The notes below the pieces were generated by a model. The model did no database searches. It was not told the DNA's origin and worked only from the letters and a program-made list of their open reading frames with translations. Below, piece after piece: positions 33,091-46,034 of a stretch of 64,000 nucleotides of DNA. A program made the translations under genes and the position numbers. The stretch covers positions 124,001-188,000 of the forward strand of contig NZ_FTMS01000003.1 of the NCBI RefSeq assembly GCF_900156105.1, in the 5' to 3' direction. Within the stretch, counting starts at the first letter, position 1. Every line of letters starts with the position of its first letter. The DNA comes from Alkalispirochaeta americana (GTDB lineage: Bacteria > Spirochaetota > Spirochaetia > DSM-27196 > Alkalispirochaetaceae).

Positions 33091-35616
33091 TCATGGTAAC
33101 AGCTTTTTCGGCTTCTGTCCGTTCCCCCCACCCCCCCAGGCCGACACCGCCACAACCAGATAGGCGCCACAGGAAAGAAACCAGGCCCCTTCCAGGCCAA
33201 TCCGTGCACATACGAGGGTTGTCACCGCCGCAGCGGCCACGGAGCAGGAGCTGTCAATGGCGCAGGCCCAGGGAAGGTGGTCCGTGTGCGATACGGAAAG
33301 ACGCCGCAACCCCAGGGGAAAGATCATTCCCATCACCAACCCTGCCGGAACAAGAGCCGCTGCCAGAATGCCAAGCCCCAGCGCCGAAGATGAGCCCAGT
33401 GCAGCGGCTGTCGCGAACCTCCCCAGACGTGCCCGTACCAGGATGAGTCCTGCCGCAGCCAGAGCCGTCCCCGCCAGAACAGGTCGGGTGGGTTGTACAC
33501 GCCGGGAGAGAAAGCTTCCCGTTCCCGAGCTTGTCAGCAGGAGGGTGAGCACCACAGCGGTCGCTTCCAGGTGGTTTCCCAGGGGCAGCAGGGTCTCCTG
33601 GATCAGGGCGATTTCGGCGACAATGAAGCCTGTTCCTGTTCCTGCAAAATAAAGAAAGGTCCAGAATTTTCTCTCTGATCGCCAGCGTTTCCGTCCGCAC
33701 AGGGGGGCTGCCACCAGAATCAACGCCGCCACCACAGCCTGAAGAGCTGTGAGGAGGGCCACGAAAAATCCGAGCTCGAAGTAGGGGAGGGCCGCCGTAC
33801 CGGCGAAGGCCGCGAGGCGGGGAACTGCCCGAAAGTCGAGAAACTGAAAGAAGAACGGAGCTGTATCGCTTCGGGGCGAGATGTCGAACCAGTAATCCCT
33901 GAGCTCCGGGGACTCCCGAGAGTCCAGAATTGCATCAAGGTTCTCAAAGAAGCCCCCCTCTGCCCTCCGGTGAAACCGTCCGCGTTCACCTGGGTCCAGA
34001 CCGGACAGGATTAGCAGATCGAATCCAAGAGATTCTGCGGTGGTTCGCACTGCCTCTTTCTCCTCCGGGGAAAAGGGTTCTTTGCTGACCAGAACGGTGG
34101 CGGTGTTCCAGCTTTGAATCGCAGCGATGTGATCTGCTGCCGGGGTGTGTCCCTCCGCTTCCAGGGCCGCGACCCAGGTTGTCAACAACCGCAGGGAGAT
34201 CGAGGGAGGATCCTCCAGCCAGAGGGTTGTACTGACCATTCCCCGGGGACTCAGGCGGCGCAGCATCGCCTGAAGCGCCTCCCGGGTGTAGTCGTAGCGG
34301 GGGCTCATGGCTTCTGTTCCAGAGGTCCCCCCGAATCGTCCCAGGTGAGGCGTCACAATAAGATCGTAGTAATCTGTTTTCCGGTTTGGCGAGCTCTGGC
34401 CTGGCGGTTTCCGGCGCTCTAGCCAAGGTCGTATTGCCAGGGAGGTGGTGGATATTCGAGGGTCCTGGTAAAGGTGGTCTATCCATTGAGGGTGCGTTTC
34501 GCGCAGGAGGCGCAGAGCCGGTTTGTGGGATTCCTGGAGAGTGACCTCCTGAACCCCTCGTGCAAGGGCGTGGGCTGCATCGTTGCCTGTTCGCCCCCCC
34601 AGGAGTGCCACCCGCCGGGGAGGGCGAACCTCGTAGGGAATCACCCGGGTGGTGTAGTCCAGAAGGGTTCGGCTCTCTTCTCCTGTCTTTTCTGCGCCAG
34701 CGCTCCCGGCGGTTCCCGGAAGAGAGCCGAAATAGTCTCCGTCATTGAACAGTACCGGTCTTTGGGGCGGTTCATCCAGAAACTGAAGACTCAGTCCCGG
34801 AGCGTAGCGCAGGGCCGGGGCCTGGACCACTGTCAGGTGTCCCTGGGGGGTCGATTCGCTGTAGAGAATCCGGGCCTGAGGGAGCTGGAGTGCTGCACTG
34901 ATATCCTTGTATTGCGAGGGATCGGGAAGCCCGGGAAGGATCAGGGCTGTTCCTGTGAGGAGTATTGCCAGAGTTCCTGGCAGAAGCAAAGCCAGGGTCT
35001 GCGAACGCCTTTGGAGAGGGTGGTTTCCGGCAAGAGCGGCAGGCAGGAGCAGTATAGCGCCTGCCAAGGGAAGCAGCGCCGTGAGTCCCGGCAGCGAGGC
35101 CAGGGGAAACCACCCCAGGGCGGTCAATCCCAGGAGAGCTCCCGCAGCTGATCCTCCAAGATTGGTGGCGTAGAGCGCTCCGATTCGTTCCGGGGTGCGG
35201 AGGAACAAGAGCGTTATGGCCAGGCCTGCGAAGAAGAAGGGCAAGGCGTAGAGGATATAGGTTCCTGCCAGCAGGATTCCCTGGAAGGGATCAAAGAAGA
35301 TAAGGAAGAGATCGAAATGTCCCGAGACCCTGGTAAGGGGAGTGGTGGCAGCCATGGTTGAGCAGGCAAGAAACAGGAGACAGACCAGCGCTCGGGGGCA
35401 GGAACGAAGCAGGAAGGTCTTTCCCAGAAAGGCAACAGTCCCGGCTGCGCCGAAGCCCAGCATGGCCGCCGAGATAACCAGCCCCGTAAAAGGGGCCCCC
35501 TGGGCGGCAGAAAGGAGTCTCATCAGGACTAACTGAAAGGCGATTACCGCAGCCGAGAGAAGGGCCAGTGCGGGGAGTGCTCCGGGGATTTTATTCGGGA
35601 CGGACAAAGGGAACAA
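33091..35616 (-). CDS. Polytopic membrane protein with central spermidine-synthase-like domain
   Basis: Large inner-membrane protein (about 841 residues). About seven N-terminal transmembrane segments (10-230) are followed by a soluble domain (about 240-580) resembling spermidine synthase/class I methyltransferase folds, with the glycine loop VALLGGRTGNDAAHAL, the acidic contact LQESHKPAL, and YDYTREALQAMLRRLSPRG. A second membrane block of about seven segments follows. The function is unknown; fused spermidine-synthase-like membrane proteins are common in environmental bacteria. The start is uncertain: the frame opens with TTG 35616 inside the pcm 3' end (26-base overlap), without a Shine-Dalgarno. 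Confidence 0.75.
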   Translation of the reverse strand: MFPLSVPNKIPGALPALALLSAAVIAFQLVLMRLLSAAQGAPFTGLVISAAMLGFGAAGTVAFLGKTFLLRSCPRALVCLLFLACSTMAATTPLTRVSGHFDLFLIFFDPFQGILLAGTYILYALPFFFAGLAITLLFLRTPERIGALYATNLGGSAAGALLGLTALGWFPLASLPGLTALLPLAGAILLLPAALAGNHPLQRRSQTLALLLPGTLAILLTGTALILPGLPDPSQYKDISAALQLPQARILYSESTPQGHLTVVQAPALRYAPGLSLQFLDEPPQRPVLFNDGDYFGSLPGTAGSAGAEKTGEESRTLLDYTTRVIPYEVRPPRRVALLGGRTGNDAAHALARGVQEVTLQESHKPALRLLRETHPQWIDHLYQDPRISTTSLAIRPWLERRKPPGQSSPNRKTDYYDLIVTPHLGRFGGTSGTEAMSPRYDYTREALQAMLRRLSPRGMVSTTLWLEDPPSISLRLLTTWVAALEAEGHTPAADHIAAIQSWNTATVLVSKEPFSPEEKEAVRTTAESLGFDLLILSGLDPGERGRFHRRAEGGFFENLDAILDSRESPELRDYWFDISPRSDTAPFFFQFLDFRAVPRLAAFAGTAALPYFELGFFVALLTALQAVVAALILVAAPLCGRKRWRSERKFWTFLYFAGTGTGFIVAEIALIQETLLPLGNHLEATAVVLTLLLTSSGTGSFLSRRVQPTRPVLAGTALAAAGLILVRARLGRFATAAALGSSSALGLGILAAALVPAGLVMGMIFPLGLRRLSVSHTDHLPWACAIDSSCSVAAAAVTTLVCARIGLEGAWFLSCGAYLVVAVSAWGGGGNGQKPKKLLP

Positions 35617-36756: not shown

Positions 36757-36951
36757 ATGGTAGCAGTAACATCAACGAATTCCAGCCGCACAGTTTTTTT
36801 TGCCCGCTTGATTCTCCGGACGGCAATAGGTCTGGTCTGGTTTCTCCACCACGGGAGAGTCGGTGCGAGAGGTGCCGGGGTTGCCCGGTGCGGGGGGTGT
36901 CCCCTGAAAAGCCAGTGTGGCCCCAAAGGAGCACCGCGGTGCCCATCATAA
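36757..36951 (+). CDS. Small Cys-rich membrane peptide heading the feo operon
   Basis: A 64-residue frame with one hydrophobic stretch (LILRTAIGLVWFLHHG) and a C-terminal Cys cluster (RCGGCPLKSQCGPKGAPRC). The layout is like FeoB-associated Cys-rich membrane proteins, which also combine one TM helix with a Cys tail, but no family match is claimed. Support: it directly follows the promoter, and its stop overlaps the next gene by 13 bases with that gene's AAAGGAG inside it, as in translational coupling. Against: no Shine-Dalgarno before ATG 36757. Confidence 0.5.
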   Translation: MVAVTSTNSSRTVFFARLILRTAIGLVWFLHHGRVGARGAGVARCGGCPLKSQCGPKGAPRCPS

Positions 36952-37553
36952 AACCTCTTGTTGCGGCCTTCGAAAAGCTCTGTGCCTCGTCGCGAACCCT
37001 CTTCTGGTGCTATGCGGCACCCTATCGCGGTGTGGTTTCCAGGGAAATATCCCTCTCGGGCATCGGGGAGGGAGATCGTGTTCTTGCCATCGGCTGCGGT
37101 TCGCTCCCTTTCACTGCGGTTCTTGTGGCCACCCTGGCCAAGGCGCAGGTGGTGGCCGTTGATATCGATCCCGTTTCGGTTCTCAAGGCCCGGGAGTTGA
37201 TACAACGGCTGGGGCTCTCTTCCCGGATCCAGGTTCTTGCCGGCGATGCTGCCTCCATCACGTTGCCCCAGGCCGAGGTCGCTCTCGTGGCACTCCAGGC
37301 GGCTCCCAAGAAGGAGATTCTTGATAACCTGGCCAGATCGCTTTCGGATACCTGCGGGCGGGTGCTCCTTCGTCTGCCCCGTCCAGGGCTTGAGGGACAG
37401 TACGGGCTGGATTCATCTGAGCGGTTTCTCTATTCCGCCCGGGCAGTATATCACTCCATGCCCACCTTCGATCGGTCGGTTATGGTCTCCTTCCCGTCAG
37501 AACCATCGCCTGAACAGTCGGTACAGTCGGAAAAACAGGCGGTTGTGGCGTGA
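36939..37553 (+). CDS. Nicotianamine-synthase-like SAM-dependent protein
   Basis: Cytoplasmic class I SAM-binding protein of 204 residues. GDRVLAIGCGSLPFTAVLVA, AVDIDPVSVLKARELIQRLG and VALVALQAAPKKEILDNLAR follow the pattern of nicotianamine synthases (GGPLPLT-type loop, ID(I/E)DP, AxxAxPK), including archaeal members. Those enzymes condense aminopropyl groups of SAM into metal chelators; whether this one does is an inference. The start is GTG 36939 with AAAGGAG upstream. It overlaps the next gene by four bases (GTGA). A related domain is repeated in the following fusion protein. Confidence 0.65.
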   Translation: MPIIKPLVAAFEKLCASSRTLFWCYAAPYRGVVSREISLSGIGEGDRVLAIGCGSLPFTAVLVATLAKAQVVAVDIDPVSVLKARELIQRLGLSSRIQVLAGDAASITLPQAEVALVALQAAPKKEILDNLARSLSDTCGRVLLRLPRPGLEGQYGLDSSERFLYSARAVYHSMPTFDRSVMVSFPSEPSPEQSVQSEKQAVVA

Positions 37554-39556
37554 GCGCACTATCTGTGAGGGTATCCTCTGAAAAAAGCAGACCGTTTCAG
37601 GGGTTGAAAGGCGGGGTGCTCCGGGGCGCCGTTCTTTTGGGGGGAGTCGCCGTACTCCCGTATCTGGTTTCACGGGAATCGCTCTGGTCGGCCCTCGAAA
37701 ACCTGGGGGCCCTCTCCTGGGTTGCTCTTGCAGCGTTGCTTCTTCTGCAGGTGCTGGTTCTGGGCGTGCTTTGCGTTCAGTGGAGCCTGCTTCTGGCGTC
37801 CCGGGCTCCTTCGGGAAAGGCTTCGTGGCTGTCGGTGGTTGCTCCCTATCTGGCGGGTTCCTTCGTTGAGTCCGTGACCCCTTCGGCAAAGCTGGGCGGG
37901 GGGCTCACGCGGGGCCTTCTCTTTCAGCGGCGTTTCGGAATTCCTCCCCGGGATGTGGCCCTGGTAATCGCCCTGCAGGCAACAGTCATGGTTCTGGGGG
38001 CAGTGGTTGTGCTGGTTCCTGCGGGAATGCTCCTGGGGCGGTCGGCGGTGAACCTTCTGGGAATCTCTTCCGGGATCTCTTCGGGAATTTCCGCACCAGC
38101 CCTGGGGCTCCTGCCCGGGCTGGGCATTCTTCTTCTTGCCTGCGGAGGGGGCGCTTTCTTCCTGGTTTCGGGTTCCTCCCGGCTGCAGCGACGGAATCAG
38201 AAAGGGGGCTCCCCGCGCGTGATTGCGAGAAGAACCCTGATGGTTGCAACGGCTCTGGCCGCCGCAGTGTGGGTGCTCTATCCCGTGAAGGTCTTTTGTG
38301 CTGCCTGGGCGCTGGGGGTTCCCGTTGCATTCTCGGTAATCCTGGTGGCCACGTTCAGCGCGTATCTGGCGGGGCTCCTTCCTCTCACGCCGGGAGGGTT
38401 GGGTAGCTACGAGGCGGTAATGACTCTGGTTCTGGTCCGGTCAGGGGTTCCAATGGATCGGGCGCTGGCCGTGACGATGCTTTCCCGTCTGGTGAGTTTC
38501 TGGTGGCCCCTGGCTCTCTCGGCTGTGGCGGGGGGCTTTCTTCTGATCAAGCCGGGGACCTTCCTTCCCACCGGAACAGAACGAACAATAGCTGAGACAA
38601 AGGAAGTGACAATGGGTTCTTTTTTTCTTCCTGCGGTGGTACGCTTGGAACGGCTCGCGGCTGGAAACAGTGTGGCCGGGGCCTTGTATCATCGGTGTTT
38701 CTACAGGAAAATCATCGATATCGAGATATCGGCTGCCCAGATGCGGCCCGGCTCGCGGGTGTTGCAGCTTGGTTGCGGGCCGTTTCCCATGACGGCGATC
38801 GCTCTGGCCGAGCGGGGGTATCGTGTTACCGCTGTGGACCGATGCGCCGAGACGGTGCACCGAGCCAGGCGGCTGGTCCCTCAGGCGGTACAGGTGCTCT
38901 GTGCCGACGGGTTACAACTTGATTATTCGGGCTACGATGCGGTCTTTGTGGCGTTGCACGTACAGCCCCGGCAAGATATCGTCCAACGCATTCTTGCAAC
39001 GGCAGATCCGGGAACGTCCGTGTTATGTCGCAACGGACGGGGTCCTCTCTGCCGGCCCTACGGGCGGGTGACGCCCGATATTACCGACGGTGCTGTGTCT
39101 GGCTGGAGCCGGCCGCTACCGGGAACAAAGGAGCTGGTGGTGCTCAAGAAGAAGCGATCTCAGGTGAAAGCCTATCCCAAGGTTAACAGCATGGAAGATA
39201 GTTGCCCGAAAAATAACGGGGATAATCATAACAGCACCTGCTGGAAGGAAGATCTTGCCAGTGTGTGCAGGCTCTGCGATCTGGCTCCCTGTCAGGGAGG
39301 GCAGATCGCGGCTATACCCGATTTACCCATGCTTGCTGCCATGGGGTTGCGTCCCGGCAAGGACTGTACCATTCTGGCTATCCAGCCCTGGGGTGGTCCC
39401 GTGATCTGCTCCATCGGGGGGCGCCATATTGCGCTGGAGCGGGCGGTTGCAGAAGACATCACCGTCTCCTCGGCCTCCGTATCGGCGGCGGACGCCGCAC
39501 GGGCCGGCTCATCGGGGGCTGATTCTGCCAGTCAGGAAGGATCTCTCGTCTCCTGA
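37550..39556 (+). CDS. Three-domain fusion: flippase-like membrane domain, NAS-like domain, FeoA domain
   Basis: One uninterrupted frame of 668 codons. Residues about 20-340 are a polytopic UPF0104/lysylphosphatidylglycerol-synthase-TM-type domain (hallmark LPLTPGGLGSYEA near 280). Residues about 355-540 are a second nicotianamine-synthase-like domain (SRVLQLGCGPFPMTAIALA, CADGLQLDYSGYDAVFVALH). Residues about 565-645 are a FeoA/SH3-like domain preceded by a Cys cluster (SVCRLCDLAPCQGG; LPMLAAMGLRPGKDC). ATG 38612 has AAAGGAAG five bases upstream, so an internal start could also give a separate NAS-FeoA protein. Its stop overlaps feoB (TGATG). The fusion implies that these activities serve iron uptake. 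Confidence 0.7.
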   Translation: MSALSVRVSSEKSRPFQGLKGGVLRGAVLLGGVAVLPYLVSRESLWSALENLGALSWVALAALLLLQVLVLGVLCVQWSLLLASRAPSGKASWLSVVAPYLAGSFVESVTPSAKLGGGLTRGLLFQRRFGIPPRDVALVIALQATVMVLGAVVVLVPAGMLLGRSAVNLLGISSGISSGISAPALGLLPGLGILLLACGGGAFFLVSGSSRLQRRNQKGGSPRVIARRTLMVATALAAAVWVLYPVKVFCAAWALGVPVAFSVILVATFSAYLAGLLPLTPGGLGSYEAVMTLVLVRSGVPMDRALAVTMLSRLVSFWWPLALSAVAGGFLLIKPGTFLPTGTERTIAETKEVTMGSFFLPAVVRLERLAAGNSVAGALYHRCFYRKIIDIEISAAQMRPGSRVLQLGCGPFPMTAIALAERGYRVTAVDRCAETVHRARRLVPQAVQVLCADGLQLDYSGYDAVFVALHVQPRQDIVQRILATADPGTSVLCRNGRGPLCRPYGRVTPDITDGAVSGWSRPLPGTKELVVLKKKRSQVKAYPKVNSMEDSCPKNNGDNHNSTCWKEDLASVCRLCDLAPCQGGQIAAIPDLPMLAAMGLRPGKDCTILAIQPWGGPVICSIGGRHIALERAVAEDITVSSASVSAADAARAGSSGADSASQEGSLVS

Positions 39557-41334
39557 TGGCCTGTCATACTCCAGCACGGCCAACTCCGCACGGTCACAAG
39601 GAGGTTCTGCTTATAGGGCCTCCCAACGTGGGAAAGAGTGTCATCTTTAATCAGCTCACCGGCATGAACGTCTCCATGGCAAATTACGCCGGGACAACTG
39701 TGGATATCGCCCGGGGAACGGGCCGGTTCGGTGAGTTTCCTGTTTCACTGGTGGATCTTCCCGGTACTTATACCCTGGCGGCTTCTAACCAGGCCGAAGA
39801 GGTTGCCACGGATATGCTGGCGGGTCCCGCCGACCTGGTGCTGATTGTGGCCGACGCAGTCCATCTGGAAAGCAGCCTTTTCCTCATCTTGCAAGTTCTG
39901 GAAGCCGGCCACCCCTCAATTGTGATCCTGAACCGCATTGATGTGGCTCTGCGTCGGGGAATCTCGGTTGACGCCGGGCTTCTGGCGGAGCGTCTGGGGG
40001 TGCCGGTGGTTCCCACCGTTGCGGTCCGGTCCGAAGGGTTCGATGCACTTCGTGAGGAGGTGGTTCAGATCCTGAGAGATCCCCGCGAGCCGAAGCCCCT
40101 GCAGGGAGACCCCTGGGAGATCGCCGAGGACCTCTGCCGTGTGGTACAGCACGCCCCGGCGGGGGACGATTCGGACCTCCACGATCTGCCGCCTCACGGT
40201 GCACCTCCGCACCCCCGGCGACGCATACGCTTTGGCGAGAACGCGCTGATCCAGCCCTGGCCTGGCCTCCTGATAGCGGCCGTGGCCCTTCTGACCGCCG
40301 TAGGAGTGATCGTCGGGCTTGGAATGGGGATGCGTCAGATTCTGCTCCTTCCCCTGGTGCGGGGGTATCTCTTTCCGTTCCTCCGGAGTCTGGTGACAGC
40401 TCTGGTGGGACAGGAGATGATCCGGAACATTCTTATTGGAGAATACGGGCTGCTGATCAAAGGCATTGAGTGGCCCTTCACGCTGGTGCTTCCCTACGTG
40501 ATCTCCTTCTATCTGGTAATCAGCATCATGGAGGACACGGGGTATCTGCCCCGTTTTGCCGTGCTCCTCGATGGAGCCTTTGGCAAGATCGGCCTTCGCG
40601 GGTCTCACAGTATTTCCCTTCTTCTGGGGTACGGTTGTGCGATTCCGGGGATACTTTCTTCCCGGGCCATGGGGTCCCGCAAGGAACGGATAATTCTTGC
40701 CACCATGATCTCCCTGGCGGTGCCCTGTATTTCCCAGACCGGAGCGATCTTCGCCCTCCTGGCGGAGGCGAGTCTTCTTCTTGTGCCAGTCATCTTTCTG
40801 CTCTCCTTTGCGGTGATGATCGGCGCGGGATTGATTCTGGATCGCCTCGTTCCGGGAACCCGATCCCGCCTGGTCTACGAGATGCCGGTTCTCCTGGTTC
40901 CTCAAAGGCGGGTAATCCTCCGCAAGATGATCGGACAAATCCGCCATTACATCATCGATGGGGCTCTGCCCATGGTTGTCGCTGTGGGGATCGCCTCGGT
41001 TCTCTACGAAACGGGAATCCTGGCCTACTTGGGACGGTTCTTTGCTCCCCTGGTCACGGGGTGGCTTCGCCTTCCCGAAGAGGCTGCCGTGCCGCTTGTG
41101 CTTGGGGTGGTCCGTCGGGAGCTCACGGTATTGCCCTTGCTGGACATGGGATTATCGCCGGTGCAACTTCTGGTGGGAGCCTCGGTGGGGCTTTTCTACG
41201 TGCCCTGCATAGCTGTTGTTGCCACCTTGAGCAGGGAGTTCGGGGTCAGGATTGCCTTCGGCCATCTCCTTCTGACGGTGGCCACGGCCTTTCTGGTGGG
41301 AGGGTTCATCGCCCGGGTGGGGGCGCTTTTTTAG
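39556..41334 (+). CDS. feoB: Ferrous iron transporter FeoB (short form)
   Basis: Inner-membrane Fe(II) transporter with an N-terminal G domain. G1 is GPPNVGKS near residue 22, followed by NYAGTTVDIARG (G2), DLPGTYTL (G3) and NRID (G4, usually NMxD). The membrane part has the two gate motifs: GYGCAIPGILSSRAM and the second repeat containing VRRELTVL. At 592 residues it is shorter than the common 650-770, mainly in the linker after the G domain. ATG 39556 overlaps the fusion gene stop by one base, so FeoA and FeoB are coupled. It converges with cobC seven bases away. Confidence 0.94.
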   Translation: MACHTPARPTPHGHKEVLLIGPPNVGKSVIFNQLTGMNVSMANYAGTTVDIARGTGRFGEFPVSLVDLPGTYTLAASNQAEEVATDMLAGPADLVLIVADAVHLESSLFLILQVLEAGHPSIVILNRIDVALRRGISVDAGLLAERLGVPVVPTVAVRSEGFDALREEVVQILRDPREPKPLQGDPWEIAEDLCRVVQHAPAGDDSDLHDLPPHGAPPHPRRRIRFGENALIQPWPGLLIAAVALLTAVGVIVGLGMGMRQILLLPLVRGYLFPFLRSLVTALVGQEMIRNILIGEYGLLIKGIEWPFTLVLPYVISFYLVISIMEDTGYLPRFAVLLDGAFGKIGLRGSHSISLLLGYGCAIPGILSSRAMGSRKERIILATMISLAVPCISQTGAIFALLAEASLLLVPVIFLLSFAVMIGAGLILDRLVPGTRSRLVYEMPVLLVPQRRVILRKMIGQIRHYIIDGALPMVVAVGIASVLYETGILAYLGRFFAPLVTGWLRLPEEAAVPLVLGVVRRELTVLPLLDMGLSPVQLLVGASVGLFYVPCIAVVATLSREFGVRIAFGHLLLTVATAFLVGGFIARVGALF

Positions 41335-42784: not shown

Positions 42785-44029
42785 TCAGGCCGACCGGGCG
42801 GCCCCATTCAGGTTAAACGGTTCCAGGACTCGTTCCAGGACTCCCTGCATGTGCGATATGGCCACCCCGTAATTTGTCACGCCCACTCCGGCCAGGCGGG
42901 CATCTTCCAGGCGGGCCAGCATCTGTGGCCGGGTAATCATGCACCCCCCGCAATGGATGATCAGATCGTAGCAATCAAGCTCTTCGGGGAAGGTTCCGCC
43001 CGTTACTTCCAGGTGATGCTCTTTCCCGGTGTAGGCCCGTATCCATTTGGGCAGCTTCACCCGGCCGATGTCGTCGCACTGAACCTGGTGGCTGCAGCTC
43101 TCGGTGATAAGGATTCGTGAGCCTGCGGGAAGACGATCCAGAAGATAGACGCTCTCCACAAAAGCGGGGAGGTCTCCCTTGAGACGGGAAAAGAGGATCG
43201 AGAAGGTGGTGAGGGGCACCTCGGGAGGGAGTAGCGCTGCTGCCCGGTCCACCACCTGGGAATCGGTTATCGCCAGATCGGGGGGGTGCTTCAGCTGGTC
43301 CAGCACCCAGGGCAGCTCCTGATCCTTCACCACCAGTGTTGCAGCGTTTCCGTCGAGGACCTCGCGGATCGTCTGGACCTGAGGCAGAATGAGGCGTCCC
43401 GCCGGAGCCTCCAGATCGATGGGGACGATCAGAAGCACCAGGCGAGCAGGCCCGATCAGCCCCTCCAGAAGCTGCCGGCCCCCTCGCTTCTCCTCTTTTT
43501 GCCGGGCAGATTCAAGAATTCGGGCCAGCTCATCCCGGAGCTCCCATACTCCCTCGCCCGAAGCTGAGGAAACTACGGCGGGCGGGCGGCCGGTGATCCG
43601 CTGCAACTCCCGAAGAAACTCCTGTCCGGGTCTGGTGGTGTCGCTGTGGGTCACCACCGCCAGGGTAGTCCGCTGGCTCGCGCAGGATACGAGATGGTCC
43701 AGATCTTCCGTGTCCCAGCGGTCGGGGTGTATCGTGTAGAGCGTCAGATCGCTCCCTGCCACGGCGGTACGGGTTTTTTTGTTCCTGGCAGACCCCAGGG
43801 CACCTCGATCGTCCAGACCGGCCGTATCCACATACACCACGGGTCCAAAGGGCAGAAGTTCCGACGAGCGGAGTACGGGATCCGTTGTGGTTCCTCGGGT
43901 GGGCGAGACAATAGCCAGATCCTGACCCACCAGGGCGTTCATCAGAGCCGATTTTCCGGCGTTGCACTTTCCTGCCAGGACAATGTGGGGCCGCATGGCC
44001 CTGGGAGTTCCCTGTGGTCCTCTGCTCAT
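42785..44029 (-). CDS. hydF: [FeFe]-hydrogenase maturation GTPase HydF
   Basis: Scaffold that receives the [2Fe] subcluster from HydE/HydG and transfers it to the hydrogenase. It has 414 residues. The N-terminal GTPase has GKCNAGKSALMNAL, GTTTDP, YVDTAGLDD and THSD. The C-terminal part carries the cluster-binding motif Cys-x-His (ESCSHQVQC) and CGGCM. The start ATG overlaps the TM1266-type gene stop by four bases. No hydA is visible in the window. Confidence 0.95.
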   Translation of the reverse strand: MSRGPQGTPRAMRPHIVLAGKCNAGKSALMNALVGQDLAIVSPTRGTTTDPVLRSSELLPFGPVVYVDTAGLDDRGALGSARNKKTRTAVAGSDLTLYTIHPDRWDTEDLDHLVSCASQRTTLAVVTHSDTTRPGQEFLRELQRITGRPPAVVSSASGEGVWELRDELARILESARQKEEKRGGRQLLEGLIGPARLVLLIVPIDLEAPAGRLILPQVQTIREVLDGNAATLVVKDQELPWVLDQLKHPPDLAITDSQVVDRAAALLPPEVPLTTFSILFSRLKGDLPAFVESVYLLDRLPAGSRILITESCSHQVQCDDIGRVKLPKWIRAYTGKEHHLEVTGGTFPEELDCYDLIIHCGGCMITRPQMLARLEDARLAGVGVTNYGVAISHMQGVLERVLEPFNLNGAARSA

Positions 44030-44325
44030 GGGGTTTCCTCGGTGAGGGCCGTGCCGGGAAGACTCTGAAGCCCCGTTTTCACCGTCACACCGGGCAACGC
44101 TCCAAGCTTTCCGCTGAGAGAGCCCATCTCGTCGGTGGTGGCGCGAACGATGAGGGTTATGATCGAGATTGATCCTTCCTCAAGGTTGGGAAGACCCAGA
44201 CGTCCAACAATGCAGTCGGCATGAGCCGAAAGGATCTGGTTTATCCGTGCTCCCAGGCGGTGGCGGTTTTCTACGATAATGCCCACAAAGCCGTAGCGCT
44301 TGTTTTGTTCAGCCCTTGTTTCCAT
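44026..44325 (-). CDS. TM1266-family iron-only hydrogenase system regulator
   Basis: Small ACT-like protein of 99 residues. KRYGFVGIIVENRHRLGARINQIL and the LPNLEEGSISIITLIVRATTDEMGSLSGKLGAL region match the family called iron-only hydrogenase system regulator (TM1266), usually next to hyd maturation genes. ATG 44325 is preceded by GGAGGGAG; the frame to 44454 is a shadow of the upstream gene. It likely senses a small molecule, but no DNA-binding domain is visible. Confidence 0.85.
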   Translation of the reverse strand: METRAEQNKRYGFVGIIVENRHRLGARINQILSAHADCIVGRLGLPNLEEGSISIITLIVRATTDEMGSLSGKLGALPGVTVKTGLQSLPGTALTEETP

Positions 44326-44911
44326 GGTGGCTCCCTCCTGTTCGGGATGGTTCAGGTGATGTCTGATCCTTGAGTGATTCATCTTCATTGGAGGCTCCGG
44401 ATTCAGCAGGAGATTCTTCCCGCAGAACCTGATAATCCCGGGTTTGCACGCCAAGGAGAGCTGCTACTGCAGCGGTCCAGGTCGAGACGTTCCGGGGATC
44501 TTCAACCAAAGGAGACGAGTGGGGAAGAGGATAGTGGTTGCCCAGGACACCTGTAGCGTAGGCGTCAAAGAGATCGCCTTCTCTCCGGAGCGGCAACCCG
44601 GCAATCTCTTCCAGGTGGTTTAGAAAATTCTCCGCCTCTGGTGGCGTCTTCCGGGGCTGCCAGAACGAGCAGTGACCCACTGGAAAGGGAGTATCGGGCG
44701 AGTAGAGGAGATCCTGAAGAAACTCAAGTCCCGCCGAATCCCCCCCGGGAGGAACCCGGTAAAAGAGAATCGGTTTGGCAGGATCAAGGAACCGGAGTAT
44801 TACCCCGGGGATCGTCTCCGAGGGCTCCCTGGCTGCGGGTATCCTCTCCATCATCACTAAATCACCTGTTTCCAGAGAGGGGGCAAAGAGGGTGAACTCG
44901 AGCTCAGTCAT
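44309..44911 (-). CDS. Unknown protein within the hydrogenase maturation operon
   Basis: A 200-residue protein that I do not recognise. It starts MTELEFTLFAPSLETGDLVM (ATG 44911 with AAGGAG upstream), contains VGHCSFWQPRKTPPEAENFL and ends in a Ser/Glu/Pro-rich tail after about residue 165. There is no signal peptide and no clear catalytic motif; a His/Cys pair (GHCSFW) is the most distinctive feature. It overlaps hydE by eight bases and the TM1266-type gene by 17, so it is part of the operon and probably serves hydrogenase assembly or regulation. Confidence 0.7.
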   Translation of the reverse strand: MTELEFTLFAPSLETGDLVMMERIPAAREPSETIPGVILRFLDPAKPILFYRVPPGGDSAGLEFLQDLLYSPDTPFPVGHCSFWQPRKTPPEAENFLNHLEEIAGLPLRREGDLFDAYATGVLGNHYPLPHSSPLVEDPRNVSTWTAAVAALLGVQTRDYQVLREESPAESGASNEDESLKDQTSPEPSRTGGSHHGNKG

Positions 44912-46034
44912 GGAATACTCCTTCCTTCCGCCGGGCGTGGGGGGCGTCTCCCCAGGAATGATACGACACAGGGCGCCGGGCCCAGGCCGCACGGCGGGGA
45001 GTACAGGAAATGCACTCCCGAGCCGTCTCCTCCACGCAGGGTTTTCCCTGGTAGAGCTGGTAGGCCCTGCGCTGACCACCGGGAGTAACGATTGGCATTA
45101 GTACGTTGGCGCCAAAGGCGAGTCCCTGTTCCCGTCCTGTCGGTGAAAGGGCCTGCAGGGCCGTGGCGGCAGCGATATTCACATCCCTCAAAACGAGTCG
45201 TGTGGCGGCGATCATCCGCAGGGAGAGGCGCAATCGTTCTGCACCGCTGGTGTCGGGCAAAAGTCCCTGGCGGTGCATCTCCTCCCGGGCGCTGCCTGCA
45301 GCCTCAATATAGGGCCCCATGCCGATCATGTCGGCATCGATCTCCCGGAAAAACATGATATCCCGGGCCAGATCCCGTGAGGTTTGGCCCGGAATGCCGA
45401 TCATCACGCCCGTTCCAACCTGGAACCCTTCGGCCCTGAGATCTTCCAGTGCCTGGAGTCGCCGCTCCAGGGGCTGTTCCGGGGGGTGGAGTCGGGCAAA
45501 GAGGCGAGGGTTGCTGGTCTCGACCCGCAGGAGATAGCGGTGTGCTCCGGCGTCAAAAAAACGCCGGTAGGTCTCCCGGGTTTGCTCTCCCACGGAGAGG
45601 GTAATTCCCAGCCCCCGGGGAAGATCGGGAGTGACCGTTTCCTCCTTTATCCGTCGCAACACCCCTTCGACAAAATCGATAAAAGGTCGGTCCCGGCGTT
45701 CTCCTGCCTGGAGGGTCATGGAGCCGTATCCCTCCTGCAGGCAGAGACGAGCCCCTTCCAGGATTGCCTCCTCGGAAAGATCGAACCGGACAAGAGGGGC
45801 TCCCTGGTCATCGCTCCTGCTGGAGCGACGAATCCCGCAGTAGTAGCAGTCGCTGGTGCACCGGTTGGAAAACTCCAGGAGCCCCCGAAGGCGGACCTCT
45901 TCTCCCACCTCATCGGCCATGACCTGCCGTGCCCGGGCTGCCAGGGCGGCGTCTCCTCCCGGCCAGCGGCCCAGAAGAAGTTCTTCCAGCTCCTCCAGGG
46001 AGAAGGTTCCCCGGGGAACAATCGTATCAGACAT
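44904..46034 (-). CDS. hydE: [FeFe]-hydrogenase maturation radical SAM protein HydE
   Basis: Radical SAM enzyme needed to build the H-cluster from the HydG product. It has 376 residues, with the CX3CX2C cluster motif in FSNRCTSDCYYCGIR near residue 60, ITLSVGEQTRETYRRFFDAG, YLLRVETSNPRLF and GTGVMIGIPGQTSRDLA. The extra C-terminal Cys pattern (CVEETARECISC) is also seen in some HydE proteins. The start overlaps hydG by eight bases. Confidence 0.94.
   Translation of the reverse strand: MSDTIVPRGTFSLEELEELLLGRWPGGDAALAARARQVMADEVGEEVRLRGLLEFSNRCTSDCYYCGIRRSSRSDDQGAPLVRFDLSEEAILEGARLCLQEGYGSMTLQAGERRDRPFIDFVEGVLRRIKEETVTPDLPRGLGITLSVGEQTRETYRRFFDAGAHRYLLRVETSNPRLFARLHPPEQPLERRLQALEDLRAEGFQVGTGVMIGIPGQTSRDLARDIMFFREIDADMIGMGPYIEAAGSAREEMHRQGLLPDTSGAERLRLSLRMIAATRLVLRDVNIAAATALQALSPTGREQGLAFGANVLMPIVTPGGQRRAYQLYQGKPCVEETARECISCTPRRAAWARRPVSYHSWGDAPHARRKEGVFHD

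Follow-up and report, generated by a model that had tools for sequence, protein, structure and literature searches.

The window analysed here, a stretch of 64,000 nucleotides from Alkalispirochaeta americana, carries on its plus strand (36939–41334) three overlapping genes: one for a stand-alone nicotianamine-synthase-like (NAS-like) protein, NAS1; one for a fusion of a flippase-like membrane domain, a second NAS-like domain (NAS2) and FeoA; and feoB (Table 1). We are somewhat more confident than not in reading this operon, for which no metabolite or enzyme assay exists, as a self-contained Fe(II)-acquisition module, in which a ligand made by the NAS-like enzymes would be transported by the flippase-like protein and FeoAB would import the metal. 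We found the module at 58 named loci, spread over at least 13 phyla of bacteria and archaea. Fe(II) acquisition by anaerobes at pH 9–11, where carbonate and sulfide hold iron as solids, is poorly understood, and the module suggests an undescribed iron route at very high pH.

Table 1. Positions of the operon's features in the window, and of phosphatidyltransferase genes at other module loci (locus:positions)
Feature	Position	Strand	Basis or remark
Weak DtxR/IdeR-like iron box, TTAGCGCGGGCTAA	36737..36750	.	2 mismatches to TTAGGNNNNCCTAA; ~190 bp upstream of NAS1
NAS1, stand-alone NAS-like aminocarboxypropyl transferase (putative), 204 aa	36939..37553	+	Profile, model and motif evidence
Flippase-NAS2-FeoA fusion protein, 668 aa	37550..39556	+	ORF; same fusion in L044, L054, L055, L056
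LPG_synthase_TM / UPF0104 flippase-like membrane domain, residues 25-323	37622..38518	+	PF03706 E 8.7e-29; TIGR00374 E 9.1e-22
NAS2 domain, residues 357-540	38618..39169	+	Class I SAM fold; profile, model, residues
CRLC motif, NAS2-FeoA linker	39266..39277	+	CxxCxLC in spirochaete homologues
FeoA domain, residues 574-640	39269..39469	+	PF04023 E 5.2e-12
FeoB, 592 aa	39556..41334	+	PF02421 E 3.4e-46, PF07670, PF07664
CDP-alcohol phosphatidyltransferase genes	L088:434-967, L092:1704-2384, L093:3895-4428, L098:2704-3273	-	Adjoin NAS2/flippase

The NAS1 gene most likely starts at a GTG (36939) preceded by AAAGGAG, which yields the same protein length as the first-pass annotation had given; the start that it had placed at 36757 lies within the leader. 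The fusion frame overlaps the NAS1 stop upstream and touches feoB downstream, and the open reading frames and their overlaps agree with the earlier account of a fusion that runs into feoB behind a stand-alone SAM paralogue. Domain searches likewise recover its membrane domain, class I SAM fold and FeoA within one 668-codon frame. That frame is not three genes whose stops were lost to sequencing errors, because the triple fusion recurs in Alkalispirochaeta alkalica DSM 8900 (L044) and in three metagenome-assembled genomes (MAGs; L054, L055 and L056). The Feo components are all present, with the G and Gate domains of FeoB (PF02421, PF07670, PF07664) and FeoA (PF04023); the FeoB score is 3.7 bits short of the TIGR00437 cut-off, and the protein is the sole FeoB_C match in this genome (95.6% complete). 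The cysteine motif in the NAS2-FeoA linker, a possible metal site, is kept only in spirochaete fusions; the full CxxCxLC is confined to the spirochaete group and is ruled out as a general module feature.

Upstream of the operon lies a divergent protein-L-isoaspartate methyltransferase gene. It is adjoined by a gene (33091–35616, minus strand) for an 841-aa multi-pass membrane protein that has no Pfam match at 1e-5 and by eye resembles a membrane-bound spermidine-synthase-like protein. Downstream of feoB are opposite-strand genes, cobS among them; adjoining cobS, near the 3′ side of feoB (42785–46034, minus strand), are HydF, recognised by its HydF domains, and a HydE-looking radical SAM protein, both of [FeFe]-hydrogenase maturation.

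For the two SAM domains, single-sequence Pfam searches returned generic methyltransferase models together with NAS, and Methyltransf_25 scored above NAS; NAS1 alone exceeded the Pfam NAS cut-off (30.7 versus 27.1 bits) and the NAS2 domain alone fell under it (20.1 versus 27.1 bits). Such scores, on a generic class I fold, would also suit ordinary or repurposed SAM methyltransferases that lie beside feoAB by chance. Since these searches favoured the generic models, we built family profiles from 54 NAS1 and 42 NAS2 sequences. The NAS1 profile matched CntL and the archaeal enzyme MtNAS at E ~2e-16, the next match being a methyltransferase at 6.5e-9; the NAS2 profile matched MtNAS at 7.5e-24 and CntL at 1.2e-16, followed by a methyltransferase at 1.4e-7. 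AlphaFold (AF2) models (pLDDT 90.9 for NAS1 and 89.1 for NAS2) ranked MtNAS first in both structure comparisons: Z 20.5 over 186 residues (rmsd 3.0) for NAS1, with the best non-NAS structure at Z 18.8, and Z 19.3 over 178 residues (rmsd 6.1) for NAS2, with a second MtNAS entry at Z 19.1 (rmsd 3.7) and the best non-NAS structure at Z 17.4. The structural margin over non-NAS folds is small, and the profiles and residues therefore carry the weight. Profiles and structure matches alike group both domains with archaeal NAS and CntL, bearing out the first-pass annotation, which had called both NAS-like and proposed comparison with these structures. Together with the catalytic dyad described below and a feo linkage kept across bacteria and archaea, they leave chance methyltransferases a very improbable explanation.

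NAS1 and NAS2 are not canonical NAS, however. Full-length NAS has a complete N-terminal helical domain that covers the active site, whereas the models place only two helices ahead of the Rossmann fold, and most of that domain is absent. As modelled, the two proteins are for this reason a short subfamily of the NAS/CntL superfamily (PF03059), and with the N-terminal bundle down to two helices their activity could differ or be lost.

The catalytic residues are conserved. MtNAS deprotonates its acceptor amine via Glu81 and Tyr107 (PMC10491745), and mutagenesis data on catalytic residues exist for plant NAS (PMC10248798). Four residues ahead of the Rossmann fold (Glu, Tyr, Tyr, Glu) are invariant in 56 of 56 aligned NAS1 sequences, and three (Glu, Tyr, Glu) in 43 of 43 NAS2 sequences. 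The window's NAS1 has E12 (the catalytic Glu equivalent), Y25, Y29 (the Y107 equivalent), E36 and a GCGSLPFTA SAM loop; its NAS2 has E367 (equivalent to CntL E84), Y385 (equivalent to MtNAS Y107), E392, a GCGPFPMTA loop and R494. The NAS2 profile aligns the catalytic Glu with the CntL Glu, at precisely the position where the crystal structure of the CntL E84Q mutant has Gln, and the Tyr with the MtNAS Tyr at chain index 107; when archaeal NAS were aligned independently with MAFFT, the catalytic residues fell in the same columns. The catalytic Glu that the earlier proposal had wanted checked (CntL E84, MtNAS E81) is accordingly found in both proteins, with the Tyr beside it. What the enzymes do with these residues is inferred from sequence: SAM would donate its 3-amino-3-carboxypropyl (ACP) group to an amine, MTA would be released, and such transfer could build a nicotianamine-like Fe(II) ligand.

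We scanned one genome per species with motifs from the NAS1 alignment, which derive from spirochaetes, and obtained the 58 loci; an earlier contig scan with the whole fusion as query gave no matches, probably because its patterns lay in variable parts. FeoA is present at 48 of the loci, FeoB at 46, and NAS2 and the flippase at 43 each, with many of the absences at contig ends. Most relatives encode the flippase on its own, and their NAS2 and FeoA are either fused or separate; in the nearest relatives the flippase is often its own gene, and NAS2-FeoA stays fused in spirochaetes. Fusion of NAS2 to FeoA occurs at 25 of the 58 loci and includes the flippase at four of these. Because the parts are adjacent genes outside the fusions, we regard NAS1, flippase, NAS2, FeoA and FeoB as the constant unit. 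The domain order that the first-pass annotation had stressed is thus real and recurrent, but it represents just one variant of a widespread, soda-lake-linked module that had been missed.

Linkage within the unit is tight: the flippase follows NAS1 or NAS2 at 37 of 43 loci, and in 35 of 39 cases it abuts or overlaps the module gene ahead of it. No gene beyond the module recurs in more than three phyla or five loci of its neighbourhoods, where no opine dehydrogenase (CntM) or dedicated metal-complex importer recurs either, and the window's operon comprises its three genes only. Some otherwise complete modules lack the flippase (e.g., L045, L058 and L076), and some carry one NAS only, which rules out NAS1 and NAS2 as an obligate pair. 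A related single-NAS version is found in G449, presumably the soda-lake methanogen Methanosalsum zhilinae. In its simplest form (L114–L117, from methanogen-class genomes), the module runs FeoA-FeoB, then a single short NAS, then the flippase, with L114 mirrored. A genome of the class of G061 has two canonical NAS genes in tandem (L123:169-2512).

Within Spirochaetota only 3 of 393 sampled genomes have the module: this one, G006 of the same genus, and G012 of the same order, which we take to be Spirochaeta africana DSM 8902. A search of plasmids for the module gave no match. Profile searches add carriers of unknown habitat, 24 of 98 genomes in the class of G661 and 11 of 296 in that of G646. 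Distances among NAS1, NAS2, FeoB and flippase sequences correlate even between phyla (rho 0.19–0.43), as expected if the parts move as a set. A joint tree has a branch (support 90) that separates NAS1 from the rest; NAS2 comes close to such a separation, and another branch (support 100) sets canonical archaeal NAS apart; because the tree separates the three, the NAS1/NAS2 pair probably diverged before it spread. In the NAS1 tree Thermoplasmata neighbour spirochaetes, methanogens neighbour a clostridium, and Spirochaetota fall into two separate groups. Horizontal transfer of the module is likely on this tree, but not proven.

Sample codes of two surveys of Siberian (Kulunda) soda lakes, with sets of 871 and 1032 MAGs (PMC6146748, PMC6704655), are borne by 46 of the 58 named loci. 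Five more have PLM2, DLM2 or GEM2 codes, which we infer to denote Cariboo soda-lake mats, although the codes are absent from the text of PMC6748926. The Kulunda surveys make up at most 2.2% of the 84,980 genomes in the collection, and a naive binomial gives P ~1e-64 for the enrichment, with the reservation that related loci are not independent draws. The A. alkalica and Methanocrinis natronophilus loci belong to soda-lake organisms. Counting these and the inferred Cariboo codes, about 53 of the 58 loci come from soda lakes; the other five are HAP27, which is near-identical to a Bitter-1 lake MAG, a Desulfotomaculum MAG, Methanocalculus chunghsingensis, Herbivorax ANBcel31 and Halanaerobium polyolivorans. 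The bias to soda lakes embraces nearly all of the named loci, bearing in mind the spirochaete origin of the motifs and the unknown habitat of the additional carriers.

In the 12.4 kb counted upstream of modules, exact TTAGGNNNNCCTAA is present 11 times, against 5 times in 501 kb elsewhere (89-fold); of these 5 copies, four precede spirochaete modules and fall just past the counted stretch. The sequence corresponds to the left 14 bases of the DtxR/IdeR operator. Enrichment drops to 2.5-fold for boxes with two mismatches, which are hardly informative, and the window's own box is weak alone because the copy is degenerate. We consider TTAGGTAAGCCTAA a putative DtxR target, and going by this enrichment a DtxR/IdeR-type iron repressor probably controls the module in many hosts. 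Both the conservation of the Feo link and the enrichment of the iron box favour an iron role for the module; specificity for iron remains an inference.

Taken together, these observations would fit a mechanism in which a flippase-like protein, fused to a NAS or translated right after it, carries the ligand through the cytoplasmic membrane, Fe(II) in alkaline water rich in carbonate and sulfide is thereby kept accessible to FeoB, and FeoA/FeoB import it. The cargo, presumed to be the ligand, whether soluble or on lipid, and the direction of its movement are inferred, as is the existence of a chelator. The membrane domain matches PF03706 clearly, and lipid flipping is deduced from the family only. 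PF03706 proteins are known as lipid flippases and not as exporters of soluble metallophores. This counts against our preferred explanation, as do the lack of any importer for a metal–ligand complex in the module, the modules without a flippase or with one NAS, and the degenerate iron box of the window.

A rival reading is a lipid-anchored chelator: NAS1 and NAS2 would modify an amino-phospholipid by adding ACP units to its head group, and the flippase would bring the resulting chelating lipid to the outer leaflet, from where it would supply FeoB with Fe(II). MprF, of the same family, likewise has a head-group enzyme joined to its flippase; little is left of the NAS lid domain; and module neighbourhoods lack a recurrent transporter for a soluble metallophore. 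A CDP-alcohol phosphatidyltransferase lies beside NAS2 or the flippase in four Mollicutes/Izimaplasma modules (Table 1), with a similar gene in a fifth such genome, and its best match is phosphatidylserine/archaetidylserine synthase. These matches are under the curated cut-offs and limited to one lineage, though, and several module genomes, this one included, have no clear PssA; this weakens the lipid version, and phosphatidylserine is ruled out as a general acceptor. BtaA, the ACP transferase known to act on lipids, has moreover no homology to NAS (PMC10491745). We rate the lipid anchor a serious alternative, though clearly less likely than our preferred explanation, and it seems to us similarly doubtful that soda-lake anaerobes, bacterial and archaeal, share a membrane-anchored metallophore by horizontal transfer as their iron strategy.

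Alternatively, the NAS product could stay inside, taking Fe(II) from FeoB via FeoA and buffering or trafficking it, with the flippase serving something else or moving excess out. NAS2 is often fused to FeoA, which is presumably cytosolic, the flippase is missing from some complete modules, and plant nicotianamine is established to act largely within the plant. The tight translational coupling of flippase and NAS and the bias to alkaline water fit an extracellular problem better, and we judge a purely cytosolic ligand or sensor distinctly unlikely.

If the Fe(II)-acquisition module is what we propose, nicotianamine chemistry extends to many phyla; FeoB, part of a system usually seen as a carrier of free Fe(II), gains a dedicated ligand supply; and soda-lake life has a genetic marker common to bacteria and archaea. 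With A. alkalica and S. africana in culture, the module is directly testable. Literature searches, from which subscription papers were excluded, found no paper joining nicotianamine synthase with FeoA/FeoB and none linking nicotianamine with soda lakes; papers matching nicotianamine and ferrous iron transport were plant or general ones. The module is undescribed in the searchable literature, and a prior description behind subscription cannot be excluded.

Among known systems, MtNAS (PDB 3FPE, 3O31) is the best sequence and structure match of NAS1 and NAS2 and shares the Rossmann core, the G-x-G-P-x-P loop, the catalytic Glu and Tyr, and the PK and R motifs; its N-terminal helical domain of ~110 aa is reduced to two helices in the module proteins, which come as two divergent partners and have feo and flippase genes as neighbours. 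The staphylopine and pseudopaline operons also place a NAS-type ACP transferase, CntL, in a metal-uptake operon, and the E84 equivalent is kept, but they serve zinc and other divalent metals through ABC transport, whereas the module is tied to Fe(II) and Feo and has no recurrent CntM, ABC or TonB importer. With ordinary Feo it has in common the FeoA domain and the FeoB GTPase permease, to which it adds two NAS-like enzymes and a flippase, in an operon or fused to FeoA; an evolutionary survey of Feo mentions no NAS or flippase link, only unspecified extra FeoA domains (PMC8749426). A parallel in architecture is MprF, the lysyl-phosphatidylglycerol flippase/synthase, where a PF03706 domain is likewise followed by a soluble enzyme domain, the enzyme there being an aminoacyl-tRNA-dependent transferase and here a NAS-like one.
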